DNA of 64,000 nucleotides from Paludibacteraceae bacterium (GTDB lineage: Bacteria > Bacteroidota > Bacteroidia > Bacteroidales > Paludibacteraceae), in the NCBI GenBank assembly GCA_017647145.1, contig JAGCLD010000004.1, forward strand, positions 1 to 64,000, read 5' to 3'. This document shows, in pieces, positions 3,596-46,337 of this stretch. A model generated the notes under the pieces. It saw only the letters and a list, made by a program, of their open reading frames with translations. It was not told the DNA's origin and did not search any database. The stretch's first letter is position 1; each line of letters opens with the position of its first letter. A program made the position numbers and the translations under genes.

Positions 3596-3628
3596 TTTGC
3601 TTATATCGCAGAGATATAGTACATTTGC
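3596..3628 (+). promoter_or_regulatory. Promoter of leader RNA A
   Basis: TTTG (3596-3599), 20-bp spacer, TACATTTGC (3620-3628). This is a perfect match to the Bacteroidota primary sigma factor consensus TTTG-N19/20-TAnnTTTG. It places the transcript start near 3634, a few bases before the 5' strand of the closing helix of the RNA. Confidence 0.8.
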
Positions 3629-3633
3629 ATTTG

Positions 3634-3951
3634 AATCCTACGCCGGAGGGGATATGTCCTGCGAAAGGTGTTTCGCTCAAGGTGGCTTCCGAGGGTAGGT
3701 TTCTGACATATTGAATAGCGTTTATTGACGCTTTGTGTTTGACCAATAGAAAACTTCGCAACTTTTCATCTTGGATAAGCCAACATCAAAGTGAGCAGTA
3801 GATGCCTATGGGTATGAGTGTATCCATGCTACACCTGTGCAGGGTGTGGTGTGTTTTCATACCGGCGTAGGTTTCCTGTTGTTTATTTGACTTATCCGGC
3901 AATGCGAAGGCCTCTATTGGTAAATAATCAACGGAGGTCTGCGCTTTTTTT
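3634..3951 (+). ncRNA. Structured leader RNA A (unrecognised family)
   Basis: About 318 nt, from its own promoter to a T-run at 3945-3951. Visible helices are: P1 CCTACGCCGG (3637-3646) with CCGGCGTAGG (3862-3871), 10 perfect pairs; P2 ATATGTC (3652-3658) with GACATAT (3705-3711), enclosing hairpin GCGAAA-GGTG-TTTCGC (3661-3676); P4 GGGTAT-GAGT-GTATCC (3810-3825); P5 CTACACC (3829-3835) with GGTGTGG (3843-3849). The core GACATATTGAA-T-AGCGTTTATT (3705-3726) matches RNA B (45009-45304, minus strand) at 21 of 22 positions. The RNA ends in an intrinsic terminator 58 nt before the start codon at 4010, the layout of a cis-acting attenuator. It lacks the signature sequences of RNase P RNA, tmRNA or common riboswitches that I can recall. 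It could also be a free sRNA, or a known Bacteroidales family that I do not recognise. Confidence 0.75.
3903..3951 (+). terminator. Intrinsic terminator of leader RNA A
   Basis: Imperfect hairpin GCGAAGGCCTC (3904-3914) with GAGGTCTGCGC (3934-3944), followed by seven T (3945-3951). It lies inside the presumed transcription unit, 58 nt before the gene at 4010, so it may be a regulated terminator rather than an operon end. Confidence 0.7.
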
Positions 3952-4009: not shown

Positions 4010-4498
4010 ATGAAAAAGTTTGTTATTTATTGGGTACTTTTCCTATTGCTACCTATAAGATTATGGGCGCAAGATTCCGAGTCTATGAAAGTGAAGACCT
4101 CAGATGGCAGGGAAAAATCAGTCTCATTGGTCCATGTTAAAAATATAGAATGTTTGGACAATGCTCTGAGAATTGTTACTTCAAGTGGGACGTTCCAGTT
4201 TTCTTTAGATGAAGTGCAGAGTATTACGTTTAACACGCAATCAACTGTTACTAATAGTTCCGAGCTTGTCTCTGAAGGTACGCAAGTGTTACTCGTTGAA
4301 GATGCATTGTTAATAGAAAGCGAATGTGCGATTAATGCGTTCCATCTGTTTGATATGAATGGTAAGATGTTGAAGCGTCAAAAGGTGAATACTCAATATC
4401 AAATGTCAATATCTTTATCAGGTGTGAATCCAGGTGTTTTTGTTTTGTTTTTAGAAACAACTCACGGCTATGTGACAAGAAAAATAATTTACAACTAA
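4010..4498 (+). CDS. Small exported protein with T9SS-type C-terminal sorting domain
   Basis: 162 residues. There is a signal peptide over about 1-20 ending in WAQ. The middle holds a motif common in Bacteroidales surface proteins (SLDEVQSITF, about 65-74). The last 75 or so residues resemble a T9SS type A sorting domain: INAFHLFDMNGKMLKR, then NPGVFVLFLE, ending VTRKIIYN. There is almost nothing between the motif and the sorting domain, so this is close to a minimal T9SS cargo. It begins 58 nt after the leader RNA A terminator and is 20 bp upstream of the larger exported gene, with which it probably forms an operon. The function is unknown. Confidence 0.75.
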   Translation: MKKFVIYWVLFLLLPIRLWAQDSESMKVKTSDGREKSVSLVHVKNIECLDNALRIVTSSGTFQFSLDEVQSITFNTQSTVTNSSELVSEGTQVLLVEDALLIESECAINAFHLFDMNGKMLKRQKVNTQYQMSISLSGVNPGVFVLFLETTHGYVTRKIIYN

Positions 4499-33860: not shown

Positions 33861-36800
33861 ATGCCCATCTTAACATCAAAGAAATATCAACTTTTATGGC
33901 TCTTCTGCTTGGTATTTTTGCCATTACAAGCTAAGACATTCACCAAACAGATTGAATGGACCACATGCGAGCGACTGACTGATAGCATTCGCACGCATGT
34001 GATGAGTTTTGCCGACGCACTCTATAATGAACACTCGCTCCCCATCTGTCAACACGAGTGGACAAATAGTCCAAACCGCAATGAATACACCATCCAAACT
34101 CTTTCGTCTGAAATAGTTCCACAAGAATTTATCAACAGCATTGATACGGCAACCTTAGGGACATCACCCGAATTACAACTTGAAAACAACGATGGAACAA
34201 CCATTATAAATGTAGTACCCTTCTTCAAGGAGAATGGCAAAATAAAACGACTAACTCACTATCAAATAGATGCCACTGAAGCTCGCAACACAAATAACTC
34301 TAATCTGCCACGTCATCAGTATAAAGAAAAATCCATTCTTGCATCAGGAAGTTTTGTCAAAATACGTGTTCCGAATAGCGGTATCTACAAGTTAACTTAT
34401 GAAGAACTATCTTCGTGGGGACTAAATCCTGCGCAGATTCGCATCTTTGGCTATGGGGGTGCCGTGCTAAATGAAAACTTTAACTCAGATCGTATAGATG
34501 ATTTGCCGGAAGTACCTTTCTACATCCACAAAGGCAGTGACAACACATTTGGAAAAGGCGACTACATATTGTTTCATGCACAAGGACCGGTTAGTTGGAG
34601 CTACTTGCCCAACAAATTCACCTACACCCACAGCATGAATACCTACTCCACACACGGATATTACTTCATCACATCTGATGCAAGCACAGGCAAACATCTC
34701 AATGAGGTTGCTTCCGCTGTCATCAACCCGGAGACCACACATTTAGTCAACACTTTTGACGACTATCAACTCCACGAACAAGAAGTGTTCAATGCATTAG
34801 ACCCAACAGGGTCAAATGGAGGCGGACAAGCATTCTTTGGCGAACAATTAAATAGTGGCAACACCTCCTTTAGCACAAGCTTCACATTTCCTAATATCGT
34901 GGAAGGCGCTGTGGGTAAAATAAAAACCCAATTAGCGGCTGCTTCCACCATTGCAGCGTCTCATTTCTCACTCACATTCAATGGTCAACAAGAAAAAACC
35001 ATTACGGTAAGCGCAATGCAACCCAGCATTTATGTAAAAGGAATCTTAAGCACCAACACCCACAATTTTAATCTTACACACAATAAAATCGACATAACAC
35101 TTCAAGCTGACCTACCGTCTGACGGAAAGGCTTATCTCAATTACATCGAAATGCACATACCCCGCCAACTGATTATGTCGGGAGATGCAATGTATTTTAG
35201 AACCAAAGCCAACATCGGTTCGGGTAAAGACAACTGCTATACACTTCAAAACGCCTCCCCTGATGTACACATATGGAATATCACACATCTGGATTCCATC
35301 TATCGAGTACCGGTTATATACAGCAATAACACTGTAAAATTCATAGGCTCAACAGATGAATTGCAACAATATGTTGCCGTTCGCACTTCATCAAGTCAAT
35401 TTAACACACCGGAATTTGTTGGTCATATTAATCCGCAAAACCTACACGCTCTTAAAAATATAGAATATGTCATTATATGCCCGGAGGCATTTCGCAGTGA
35501 AGCTGAACGCTTAGCCATGACACATGAAGAGCAAGATGGCCTGTCATGGATGGTAGTAAGCGACGAAGAAGTGTACAATGAATTTTCCTCCGGAACTCCT
35601 GATGCAAGTGCCTATCGTTGGTTTATGAAAATGCTTTATGACCGACATTTAGCAGGTATCTCTTCGGTTGCACCCCGATATTTATTACTCATGGGAGACG
35701 GCACTTTTGACAACCGAAAACTATTGCACAATTCAGGACCTAACACTTTATTATCCTATCAGTCGGCACTCAACATCATGGATGAAACATTTGCTTATCC
35801 AACAGATGACTATTTTGGATTTCTGGATGATACTGAGGACACAGAATTTAAAGAAACACACATGTTTGTCCGCTTGGGCATAGGCCGACTACCTGTTTCC
35901 ACTGTAGAGCAAGCACGTGATGTAGTCAACAAGTTGATTACATACATGCAAGACAATCAACAAGGAAATTGGCGCAGTCAACTTTGCTTCTTGGCAGATG
36001 ATGGCGACAGAGCTGACCACATGATTAGTGCTAACAGAATTGCTGACACAATCAGTGTGCGTCAACCCAACTATCTCATAAACAAAATTATATTAGACTC
36101 ATACTTGCAAGAAGTAACTGCTGCTGGAGAAACCTACCCCATAGCAAAAAACAAGTTTGACAATCAACTTAGAAACGGATTGTTATACCTCTGTTACATG
36201 GGACATGGAAGTCCTAACGCCATCACCAATGAAAACATGATGACCCTCGAAAGCATCAACAATATGCGCAACGAATACTATGGTGTATGGGGATTTGGAA
36301 CATGTAGTTTCTCTCATTGGGATGCCCAAACAATTTCTGCAGGCGAAGCGGCAGTCCTTAATCCACTAGGGGGCGCCATAGGAGTCTTCTCTGCTGCTCG
36401 AACCGTATACGCTGATGCCAACGAACGCCTATTGATGGAATTCAGCAAAAACTTATTCAAAAAAGAAAATGGCAAATATATTCGTATCGGAGATGTGGTG
36501 CGCCTTGCCAAAAACGCACCGAATAGAGAAGCCAACCGCATGGCATATCTCTATCTGGGTGACCCGGCATTACGCATAGCTCACCCCACCCCCTACACAG
36601 TACAAACCGACACAATCAATGCTCATCCTGCACATACCATCGACACATTAAGAGCTTTGTCTGTCAATACTATTAAAGGCAGTATTATTAATGATGAGGG
36701 CCACATAGTAAAAGATTTCAACGGCAAAACATTCGTTACCATCTTTGACAAAGAACAAAAACTCACTACCCTCAACAACCACAACGAAGAATCTGCAGCC

Positions 36801-43248: not shown

Positions 43249-44952
43249 TTACATTAAAGTGAAAGTGATACGATTAGATGAATTGCGATAGAGCATAAAG
43301 TTTTTACCCGCAATAGTCAGTGAAGAACTCTCTTCATCATAAGAATATTTTTCCGTCAGATAAACTATCAAAGCATCATATTTATCTGCCGCATTGCCTT
43401 CTAACGACAACACCATCTTAAAGCGTGTAATAGGCATATCAGCTTGGAATACATTGTTATAACCAAACCATCCATCAGAAACTCTTTTCCATGGATTACA
43501 ATCTCCTTTTAAAGTCAAAGTAAATTGAGAGGTGCCAATTTCATCCATTGCCACTTCTCCCTTTTTAAACATTTTTTCTCCCACTTTCTCTTTTACAACA
43601 CCTGCTGTTGTTTCCTTCATTTCATTGGCAATCTCTTCTAAGGCAACACCTATCTTTGAAAAGTCAACATAGTCGGTTTCCACCGCACCAAAGTTGTCTA
43701 ACATATCCACTCCCCACTCATCTTCCATGAGATCAAGGTCACATTCAAAGTCCATTGAAGTCAACACTTTTCCTTTTGCATCAATCAGTTGATAGATGTA
43801 GCGTTGTGTAGAAACGATATACGTATTCTGTCCCGGAACTTCCACCATTCTACGATACTGAGGATTAATCACCCATGCTCCTTTCTCATTAATCACACCC
43901 CAGTCACTGCCCAATTTAGCCATAGCCAATCCATTCTCATTAAAGGATTTCAGCGCTTCATACTGAGGATTAATCACCCAAACTCCCTGTTCGTTCACAC
44001 ATCCCCAATCATAAGAATCCACATCTTTTGCCGGAGCCAATTTAGACGCACCAAAAGGCAACACATCTCTAAACTGAGGATTAATAAGGTATTGTCCATC
44101 AACTGTACACCAGCCCCAGCGTGACTCTTTTTTAATCATATATTTATTACCATCAAGTGCCATGTCTGAAAATTGAGGATTGATGACAATCTTACCTGAA
44201 TTATCCACAACACCCCACTTACCTGATTTTTCCACTAACACACGACCCTCTTCCAAAGCAGTCACAATGTCAGAAATTGCTTGATAATTCATAATATCAT
44301 CATAGATTATTTCTCCGGGAGTTTTTCCATTGATGTTATAAACACCATAACGTTTATCCCCATCAATATTCTCCATCACAAAAATATGATTATTCACAAC
44401 AAAAGGAATACATGGCATATAACTTTCAGGCAACATCGCCACTTCTTTTCCGGAAGTATTAACCACAATCCAGCCCTTATCCATGTGATAAACAAGACTC
44501 TTTCCATCATAGAAAGGATGTGCTACATCCCATGATTTATCCACCATCACCTGCTTACCCTTTTCGTCAATCAACTCCACATGTCCGCCCGGAGCCACCA
44601 CATAAGCTCGGCCACACTTCATGTCAGAAGCCCATTTGTACAGTTCCTCATTTAAGAATTCACCTTGAGCATTGATATAATTATAGCGAGTTTGACCATC
44701 TACATCAAAAGACACCACCGCCCAGTCACCATGAAATTGAGCTGCATCCTCCACATAATGCATTGTGTCCACTTCTACAAATTTTCCATCTGCCAAATTA
44801 AGCACATGTTCATTTTCATAAATCTCACCTCCTTCATCTATCAAAGGAATAACCACAAGATGACCGGCTGAATCTTCAGTAGCTGATTGCGAACAATCTG
44901 CAAAAGTTAGTGCAGAAAGAGCACACAAACCATAACAAAAAAGTTTTTTCAT
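43249..44952 (-). CDS. Exported WG-repeat protein (probable lipoprotein)
   Basis: 567 residues from the ATG at 44952 (MKKLFCYGLCALSALTFADC); a frame from 44991 adds 13 residues inside the leader. The N-terminus resembles a lipoprotein signal, although Asp before the Cys is unusual for a lipobox. About eight WG repeats follow (WGVVDNSGKIVINPQF, WGCVNEQGVWVINPQY, WGVINEKGAWVINPQY and others). The final 130 residues are non-repetitive and beta-rich. WG repeats form a beta-propeller-like or solenoid surface. It is the first gene after leader RNA B, 56 nt beyond its T-run. Confidence 0.82.
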   Translation of the reverse strand: MKKLFCYGLCALSALTFADCSQSATEDSAGHLVVIPLIDEGGEIYENEHVLNLADGKFVEVDTMHYVEDAAQFHGDWAVVSFDVDGQTRYNYINAQGEFLNEELYKWASDMKCGRAYVVAPGGHVELIDEKGKQVMVDKSWDVAHPFYDGKSLVYHMDKGWIVVNTSGKEVAMLPESYMPCIPFVVNNHIFVMENIDGDKRYGVYNINGKTPGEIIYDDIMNYQAISDIVTALEEGRVLVEKSGKWGVVDNSGKIVINPQFSDMALDGNKYMIKKESRWGWCTVDGQYLINPQFRDVLPFGASKLAPAKDVDSYDWGCVNEQGVWVINPQYEALKSFNENGLAMAKLGSDWGVINEKGAWVINPQYRRMVEVPGQNTYIVSTQRYIYQLIDAKGKVLTSMDFECDLDLMEDEWGVDMLDNFGAVETDYVDFSKIGVALEEIANEMKETTAGVVKEKVGEKMFKKGEVAMDEIGTSQFTLTLKGDCNPWKRVSDGWFGYNNVFQADMPITRFKMVLSLEGNAADKYDALIVYLTEKYSYDEESSSLTIAGKNFMLYRNSSNRITFTLM

Positions 44953-45008: not shown

Positions 45009-45056
45009 AAAAAAAGCGTGGAACCTTATCTTTGCCTATCCTTCTTTCTGAGGTTC
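45009..45056 (-). terminator. Intrinsic terminator of leader RNA B
   Basis: Minus strand: GAACCT (45056-45051) pairs with AGGTTC (45027-45022), followed by CACGC and seven T. GGTTCCA of the 3' arm (plus 45019-45025) can instead pair with TGGAACC (plus 44984-44990) beyond the T-run, a possible competing structure. Confidence 0.6.
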
Positions 45057-45304
45057 TGGTACACCCTATCCGCAAGAACAAGCAAGAAACGCCCACGCCG
45101 AATATGAAATGCCACCAAACAGAGTCGTCCACGGATGGACGCTCTGCGGCAGGATATACATATCCCAAAGGGCGATTACCGCATTCTTGTTTTGGGCGAA
45201 TGAATTTACCAGATTCCAGAAAGCCAAAACAAACGCTAATAAACGCTTTTCAATATGTCTGCTCACACACCCCGTTGATAACAAACATATCACCGGCGTG
45301 AATT
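45009..45304 (-). ncRNA. Structured leader RNA B (homologue of RNA A)
   Basis: Minus-strand RNA of about 296 nt, from its promoter (45311-45343) to a seven-T run (plus 45015-45009). It shares the 22-nt core with RNA A (plus 45238-45259, 21 of 22 identical). Equivalent helices: closing CACGCCG (plus 45300-45294) with CGGCGTG (45100-45094); ATATGTTTG with CAGACATAT; GGATA-TGTA-TATCC; and an 11-pair hairpin, CAGAG-CGTCCA with TGGACG-A-CTCTG (45120-45146). The terminal hairpin sequence is wholly different from RNA A but the fold is kept. It ends 56 nt before the WG-repeat start codon. Confidence 0.75.
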
Positions 45305-45310
45305 CACTAT

Positions 45311-45343
45311 GCAAATATAAATCATCTCACACACAAAAACAAG
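45311..45343 (-). promoter_or_regulatory. Promoter of leader RNA B
   Basis: Minus strand CTTG (45343-45340), 20-bp spacer, TATATTTGC (45319-45311). The -7 box is exact and the -33 differs by one base. The distance from box to closing helix (11 nt) is close to that in RNA A (8 nt). Confidence 0.7.
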
Positions 45344-46256: not shown

Positions 46257-46337
46257 ACCTGATACATATAGTTAAATCAATGATCCCCTACTCTATTATG
46301 GATTTTCGGGCTTACTCCGTCCATTTTATCTGGTAAT

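Follow-up and report, generated by a model that had tools for sequence, protein, structure and literature searches.

Structured leader RNAs of a multi-copy Bacteroidales family with a copy-specific loop-loop duplex and a putative conditional terminator

T-box leaders and cyclic di-GMP (c-di-GMP) riboswitches are 5' leaders in which a conserved core is followed by a terminator that competes with an upstream strand, and several copies may stand ahead of different operons. In CopA-CopT of plasmid R1, pairing between the loops of two hairpins goes further than a simple kiss and leaves the stems intact, which results in a four-way-junction-like structure. The accessory genes of gut Bacteroidales, including those for phage defence, surface proteins and peptides, are known to be regulated mainly via invertible promoters and NusG-type antiterminators. 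The FopS small RNAs (sRNAs) of Bacteroides thetaiotaomicron are a group of 14 paralogues with canonical promoters and intrinsic terminators which consist of a single-stranded 5' seed and a terminator hairpin, act in trans and are bound by RbpB (PMC11697453). The subject here is an RNA family represented by two leaders, RNA A and RNA B, which are encoded in a window comprising positions 1-64,000 of contig JAGCLD010000004.1 from the 2.0 Mb genome of a Paludibacteraceae bacterium (assembly GCA_017647145.1). The family is real, new, widespread and multi-copy, and A and B are probably cis-acting leaders with conditional termination that belong to a new Bacteroidales family.

Like T-box and c-di-GMP leaders, the RNA is a 5' leader with a conserved core and an intrinsic terminator that may compete with an upstream strand, and it is present in multiple copies per genome. 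Unlike them, the strand that would compete is part of a copy-specific, long-range loop-loop duplex of about 20 base pairs (bp), it has no Rfam match, and the defence, surface and peptide genes it precedes share no pathway. The missing common pathway speaks against a metabolite sensor, for which a shared pathway is typical if not strictly required. The arrangement is reminiscent of CopA-CopT in that the loops of two hairpins, P2 and P4, pair extensively while their stems are kept, whereas here both hairpins lie within one molecule and the duplex adjoins a terminator. FopS is likewise a multi-copy paralogous Bacteroidales RNA family with promoter and intrinsic terminator, but the RNA described here is a multi-helix fold of about 300 nucleotides (nt) that lies beside genes, mostly in genomes without an RRM_1 protein. 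Membership in the FopS family was rejected by comparison with the published description, as the RNA is not built from a short 5' seed and one terminator hairpin.

A first-pass annotation of the window had described A and B as a two-copy family, which is an undercount. BLAST of A and B against the source genome returned many more copies, the better-matching of which are 69-85% alike. Two models, R1 for the 5' core and R2 for the 3' domain, were built independently from 12-13 copies (with shortened calibration) and searched separately. Thirteen copies in the source genome match both models, and for two more, on contig C41, the match is clear with R2 and weak, though in register, with R1; since the separate searches coincide in register, the family has at least 15 two-part members in this genome, while two loci (C6 and C3) retain the 5' half alone. 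In all, R1 and R2 match the same strand, in register, at 155 places, of which 154 are unique, and this coincidence of independent 5' and 3' models excludes chance as the origin of the RNA family.

The folding of 12 copies with RNAalifold revealed a long-range duplex with compensatory changes at almost all pairs. This duplex of about 20 bp, composed of strands a/a' and b/b', was overlooked in the first-pass annotation and joins the loops of hairpins P2 and P4. Changes on both sides make 18 of its 25 pairs compensatory, its cells are paired in 94% of cases compared to 70% in shuffles, and its covariation score of 0.72 compares to 0.24 when shuffled and at most 0.16 when slid. Over the 153 copies used in the per-copy tests of duplex and terminator, the mean duplex energy is -32.4 kcal/mol for cognate and -16.3 kcal/mol for non-cognate strands, and the own partner strand is the best of all in 121 of them. 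Absence of covariation in a wider alignment had been named as an outcome that would speak against the annotation, and the covariation found is massive. Hairpins P1, P2, P3 and P4 are backed by the same cognate test with mean percentiles of 0.21-0.25, on a scale where 0.5 denotes no specificity; such tests can be inflated by the kinship of copies within one clade, and more reliance can be placed on how the helices differ from one another within a single test. On this scale the closing helix as the main scaffold reaches 0.39, and an extension of the fold into a rod by pairing the 5' strand of P2 with the 3' strand of P4, as in the RNAalifold fold, reaches 0.43. The latter value is the reason for preferring P2 and P4 as local hairpins and, because the test favours P1-P4 over both alternatives, a two-hairpin loop-loop model is adopted. 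The best predicted model is that of hairpins P2 and P4 with their loops paired through a/a' and b/b', and the remainder is modelled as the 5' hairpin P1, the conserved core, which holds a small hairpin, and P3, a central arm whose tip varies freely. The core is near-invariant across copies, and the RNA has the conserved structured core with covariation that is looked for in riboswitches. A coding role for the core, in which the short open reading frames (ORFs) MKGVY and MKSVY are visible by eye, was rejected because the run of A differs by one or two bases among copies and no reading frame is maintained. The elements of A and B are placed in the window as follows.

3596-3627, plus strand: putative promoter of RNA A, TTTG ... 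TACATTTG, Bacteroidetes sigma-ABfr type, from sequence
3634-3951, plus strand: RNA A, leader of about 320 nt, 5' end estimated from promoter spacing
3637-3703, plus strand: P1 of A, 5' hairpin region (mean percentile 0.23)
3637-3646, plus strand: 5' strand of P1, CCTACGCCGG, whose alternative partner is the 3' strand CCGGCGTAGG (closing helix, percentile 0.39)
3705-3731, plus strand: conserved core of A, GACATATTGAATAGCGTTTATTGACGC, including hairpin GCGU/ACGC
3731-3791, plus strand: hairpin P2 of A, 3731-3743 with 3779-3791
3743-3760 and 3773-3779, plus strand: P2 loop strands a and b of A
3804-3872, plus strand: P3 of A, 3804-3817 with 3857-3872, with variable terminal hairpin P3a at 3829-3849
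3878-3932, plus strand: hairpin P4 of A, 3878-3888 with 3922-3932
3891-3897 and 3903-3920, plus strand: P4 loop strands b' and a' of A
3904-3951, plus strand: intrinsic terminator of A, GCGAAGGCCTC...GGAGGTCTGCGC TTTTTTT, 5' arm overlapping a'
4010-4498, plus strand: first gene downstream of A, exported protein of 162 amino acids, signal peptide (crude test), Por_Secre_tail at the Pfam cut-off
45312-45343, minus strand: putative promoter of RNA B, CTTG ... TATATTTG, from sequence
45009-45305, minus strand: RNA B, leader of about 300 nt
45238-45259, minus strand: conserved core of B, GACATATTGAAAAGCGTTTATT
45187-45232, minus strand: hairpin P2 of B, 45232-45224 with 45196-45187, loop strands a 45223-45207 and b 45200-45196
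45090-45174, minus strand: P3 of B, 45174-45159 with 45106-45090, terminal hairpin P3a at 45146-45120
45032-45085, minus strand: hairpin P4 of B, 45085-45074 with 45043-45032, loop strands b' 45073-45069 and a' 45061-45044
45009-45056, minus strand: intrinsic terminator of B, GAACCT...AAGGTTCCACGC TTTTTTT, 5' arm within a'
43249-44952, minus strand: gene downstream of B, WG repeats, lipoprotein-like start by inspection, ATG 56 nt past the U-run

Both folds are more stable than dinucleotide shuffles (z of -4.4 for A and -3.9 for B), and much of what had been reported for the pair holds. The 22-nt core at 3705-3726 in A (GACATATTGAATAGCGTTTATT) and 45259-45238 in B is identical at 21 positions, promoter-like sequences lie 5' of both RNAs, and both terminate in CGC followed by seven T. 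The distance from U-run to ATG is 58 nt in A and 56 nt in B, in each case ahead of a gene for an exported protein, and the terminal hairpins (CTACACC/GGTGTGG in A, CAGAGCGTCCA/TGGACGACTCTG in B) are of unrelated sequence. The closing helix that had been given a central place is present, as the strands listed for A and as CACGCCGG/CGGCGTG in B, and it contains the reported change from T-A to C-G, but with its weak covariation it does not stand as the main structural element.

The annotation had not recognised the family, and in Rfam, at gathering as well as relaxed thresholds, nothing real was found over A or B. The chance matches are Atu_C9 (8.9 bits) and mir-50 (20.3 bits), and 6S RNA and the Bacteroidales motifs of Rfam were rejected as the identity of the RNA as no score reached the gathering threshold. 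A literature search, conducted largely without subscription papers and without preprints, found no description of the family. Its known distribution is based on metagenome-assembled genomes (MAGs): R1 matches in 21 of 61 close relatives, with a maximum of nine copies per genome outside the source genome, and in 50 of 393 genomes from the order Bacteroidales, which represent 29 of the 207 genera and many families. In a sample of 296 genomes from the phylum, a few of them from the same order, R1 matched the source genome alone. Scanning for exact patterns identified carriers in Bacteroidaceae, Prevotellaceae, Paludibacteraceae and Muribaculaceae, both MAGs and isolates, the latter including Bacteroides caecigallinarum, Bacteroides mediterraneensis, Parabacteroides sp. 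An277 and a strain called P. distasonis An897. The many copies per genome and their patchy occurrence across genomes would be expected if the RNA were left over from, or belonged to, a mobile element that brings a promoter to new genes. This origin is very improbable, given that blastn against phage and plasmid collections gave no match for the RNA family and IMG/VR a single contig (L255) with a copy supported by both models, that even the better-matching copies are too dissimilar to be recent duplicates, and that the RNA is placed strictly ahead of genes.

Some copies merit a separate mention. The two on contig C41 (G000:C41:27118-27312 and 34589-34787) are divergent, lie about 7.5 kb apart and match R1 weakly and R2 clearly, which suggests that further divergent members of the family have been overlooked. 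At G000:C6:18421-18687 (L004) the 3' half and the terminator are lost while promoter, core and downstream exported-protein gene are retained; this copy is a natural deletion that can be used as a control. A SAM-II riboswitch match above the cut-off (56.8 bits; L025:4766-4825, plus strand) is located close to one copy of the source genome.

Using gene calls by simple ORF rules, a gene lies within reach of 128 of the 154 unique copies and is on the same strand in 113 of these 128 (88%), with a peak in the distance from U-run to ATG at 50-80 nt. A preferred spacing ahead of genes had been predicted, and random placement is not borne out. Bacteroidetes-type promoter scores of at least 8.4 are reached by 56% of the RNA promoter regions but by 2% of the gaps between terminator and gene. 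As the gap is almost always without a recognisable promoter, the gene would probably be expressed by read-through from the leader. These properties are equally the ones that have to be set against a structured RNA that stands alone and acts in trans, with a promoter and a terminator of its own, the neighbouring gene gaining by leaky read-through alone. Own promoter, terminator and compact fold all suit such an RNA, as do the many paralogues per genome, comparable to the 14-member FopS family (PMC11697453), and since P2 and P4 are kept alongside the kissing duplex the fold looks finished and not merely alternative. The same-strand placement, the tight gap, the near absence of internal promoters, long-range strands that vary between copies, and the lasting linkage of the RNA to a peptide operon (see below) count against a trans-acting RNA, which is considered unlikely, though the strongest of the rival explanations.

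A terminator hairpin is present in 149 of 153 copies, and its 5' arm shares at least 4 nt with the long-range duplex in 120 of the 149. Forcing the terminator to form has a median cost of 5.0 kcal/mol when the upstream sequence is native and 1.6 kcal/mol when it is shuffled (Wilcoxon p 6e-25), and 88 of 149 copies disfavour the terminator beyond all eight upstream shuffles. The cost varies with the form of the terminator: overlaps of at least 8 nt go with 15 kcal/mol and overlaps of 4-7 nt with about 3 kcal/mol. For B the cost is 15.6 kcal/mol. Energetics and overlap fit a kissing fold that works against termination, as in an attenuator, while the direction of control and the switching are what we infer. 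It is proposed that RNA polymerase starts at the leader promoter and transcribes a structured domain of about 300 nt which ends in the intrinsic terminator, the gene starting 50-80 nt further on. The P2 loop (a, b) would pair with the P4 loop (b', a') in a compact kissing fold, similar to a four-way junction, which would take up the terminator 5' arm in part or in full. If this fold is kept, termination would be weakened and the gene read; if not, the terminator would form and a short RNA would be released. Two such states may be switched by a common signal or factor. The absence of an Rfam match, the covariation, the same-strand spacing, the probable competition between terminator and upstream structure and the promoter-poor gap together uphold the earlier proposal of a cis-acting, attenuator-like leader.

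Several observations weigh against conditional termination. In copy A the two states are nearly isoenergetic, with a difference of 0.6 kcal/mol that is no more than with shuffled upstream sequence, which is compatible with a switch without being proof of one. The commonest terminator form overlaps a' by about 4 of 10 arm nucleotides, and because the overlap is only partial, duplex and terminator might largely coexist. A trans-acting RNA would likewise be expected to have a stable fold, complete in itself, with a terminator at its end, and no common pathway was found among the downstream genes (LRR/BspA, CsgG, methyltransferases (MTases), Snf2/PLD, EcoRI methylase, acyltransferases). A passive role is also conceivable, namely that of a constitutive terminator which dampens costly accessory genes and whose structure provides RNA stability; the targets are indeed heterogeneous accessory genes, and the common form of terminator can form at little cost to the upstream fold. 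Strong selection on a duplex that touches the terminator, together with the near-invariant core, exceeds the needs of a passive terminator, and the copies in which the native upstream sequence disfavours termination beyond every shuffle point the same way, so that a passive element has a low probability. The mechanism can be examined by simple strand swaps, because each copy carries its own compensatory partner strand.

The genes downstream of the RNA encode a mixture of proteins, with BspA-like leucine-rich repeat (LRR) proteins, lipoproteins, CsgG, sulfatases and acyltransferases in one group and type II and EcoRI-type MTases, and Snf2/PLD helicases matching DISARM- and BREX-like PADLOC models, in another. 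Exported proteins are enriched, with 39 of 90 (43%) downstream compared to 90 of 361 control ORFs (25%; p = 0.001), by a crude export test that misses the lipoprotein after RNA B. The view that the leaders control cell-surface genes is in this respect correct, but at least as many targets, defence genes among them, encode proteins that lack a signal peptide. A type III toxin-antitoxin RNA was rejected because the downstream proteins belong to many families and not to a single toxin family. Small Cys-rich proteins with a Tat-like ELQSRREFFKKAAKAALP signal are encoded downstream at L086, L095, L117, L138, L151 and L244, where by inspection several Cys-rich peptide genes are followed by a gene for a radical-SAM-like maturase. 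Homologues of the Cys-rich proteins occur in 8 of the 393 Bacteroidales genomes, all 8 of which carry the RNA family, and on the RNA tree the RNAs upstream of these peptides fall together in spite of the different genomes of their loci (0 of 500 shuffles as low, with weak branch support). No clustering by downstream gene was seen on the RNA tree for MTases or PLD helicases. Homologues of the MTases that are about 50% identical and belong to other families have R1 or R2 matches upstream, some of them divergent, and therefore the association between RNA and gene may be of long standing. Together with the grouping of the peptide-linked RNAs, this counts in favour of a cis-acting leader. A large leader RNA with up to 15 copies per genome would add a further layer of control over accessory genes.

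A search for partner proteins, aimed elsewhere, brought up a correlation with RRM_1 proteins. Among 37 genomes of the family of the window, some of them incomplete, 16 have the RNA without RRM_1, 18 have RRM_1 only, two have both and one has neither (Fisher p 2e-7). On a tree of six proteins (NusG, RpoB and neighbours) from 39 genomes, 8 independent pairs could be formed, in which the absence of RRM goes with the RNA in 6.4 and the opposite holds in 0.7 on average (median p 0.07, range 0.016-0.22). The near mutual exclusion of RNA family and RRM_1 proteins within the family is a lead and not a proof, and it makes a possible replacement of one RNA-based regulatory system by another testable. 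A dedicated NusG paralogue was rejected as a partner, since by inspection NusG copy number did not separate genomes with the RNA from those without. In its widest and still tentative form, the proposal is that of a new class of Bacteroidales RNA switch which may place defence, surface and antimicrobial-like peptide operons under one signal by means of a copy-specific intramolecular kissing duplex, in lineages that lost the RRM-type RNA-binding protein used by other Bacteroidales sRNAs.

In many copies a small hairpin is visible by eye in the gap that separates the U-run from the ATG. Such hairpins show the recurring loop motifs GUAGCCCU, CCGGAGUCCUG and UUUGGAGCC and are possibly several 5'-UTR (untranslated region) elements. 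Pairing of the gap element with the large RNA was considered and rejected as there is no cognate preference. The Rfam cis-regulatory motif DUF805b (RF02914) lies between terminator and ATG above the gathering score in the relatives L181 and L119 and below it in the copies C36 and C31 of the source genome and in one more relative; the gap loci listed with the motif, some below the cut-off, are L181, L119, L090, L025 and the C36 copy. The presence of a cis-regulatory motif at this position in some copies is in keeping with a cis-acting leader. The large RNA itself has no match to RF02914. Both are cis-regulatory candidates, but DUF805b is a separate element of 35 nt which is also present without the large RNA, as in the window at 46285-46320 on the minus strand, where a full match of 38.8 bits immediately follows a promoter and precedes the gene for another, small exported protein.
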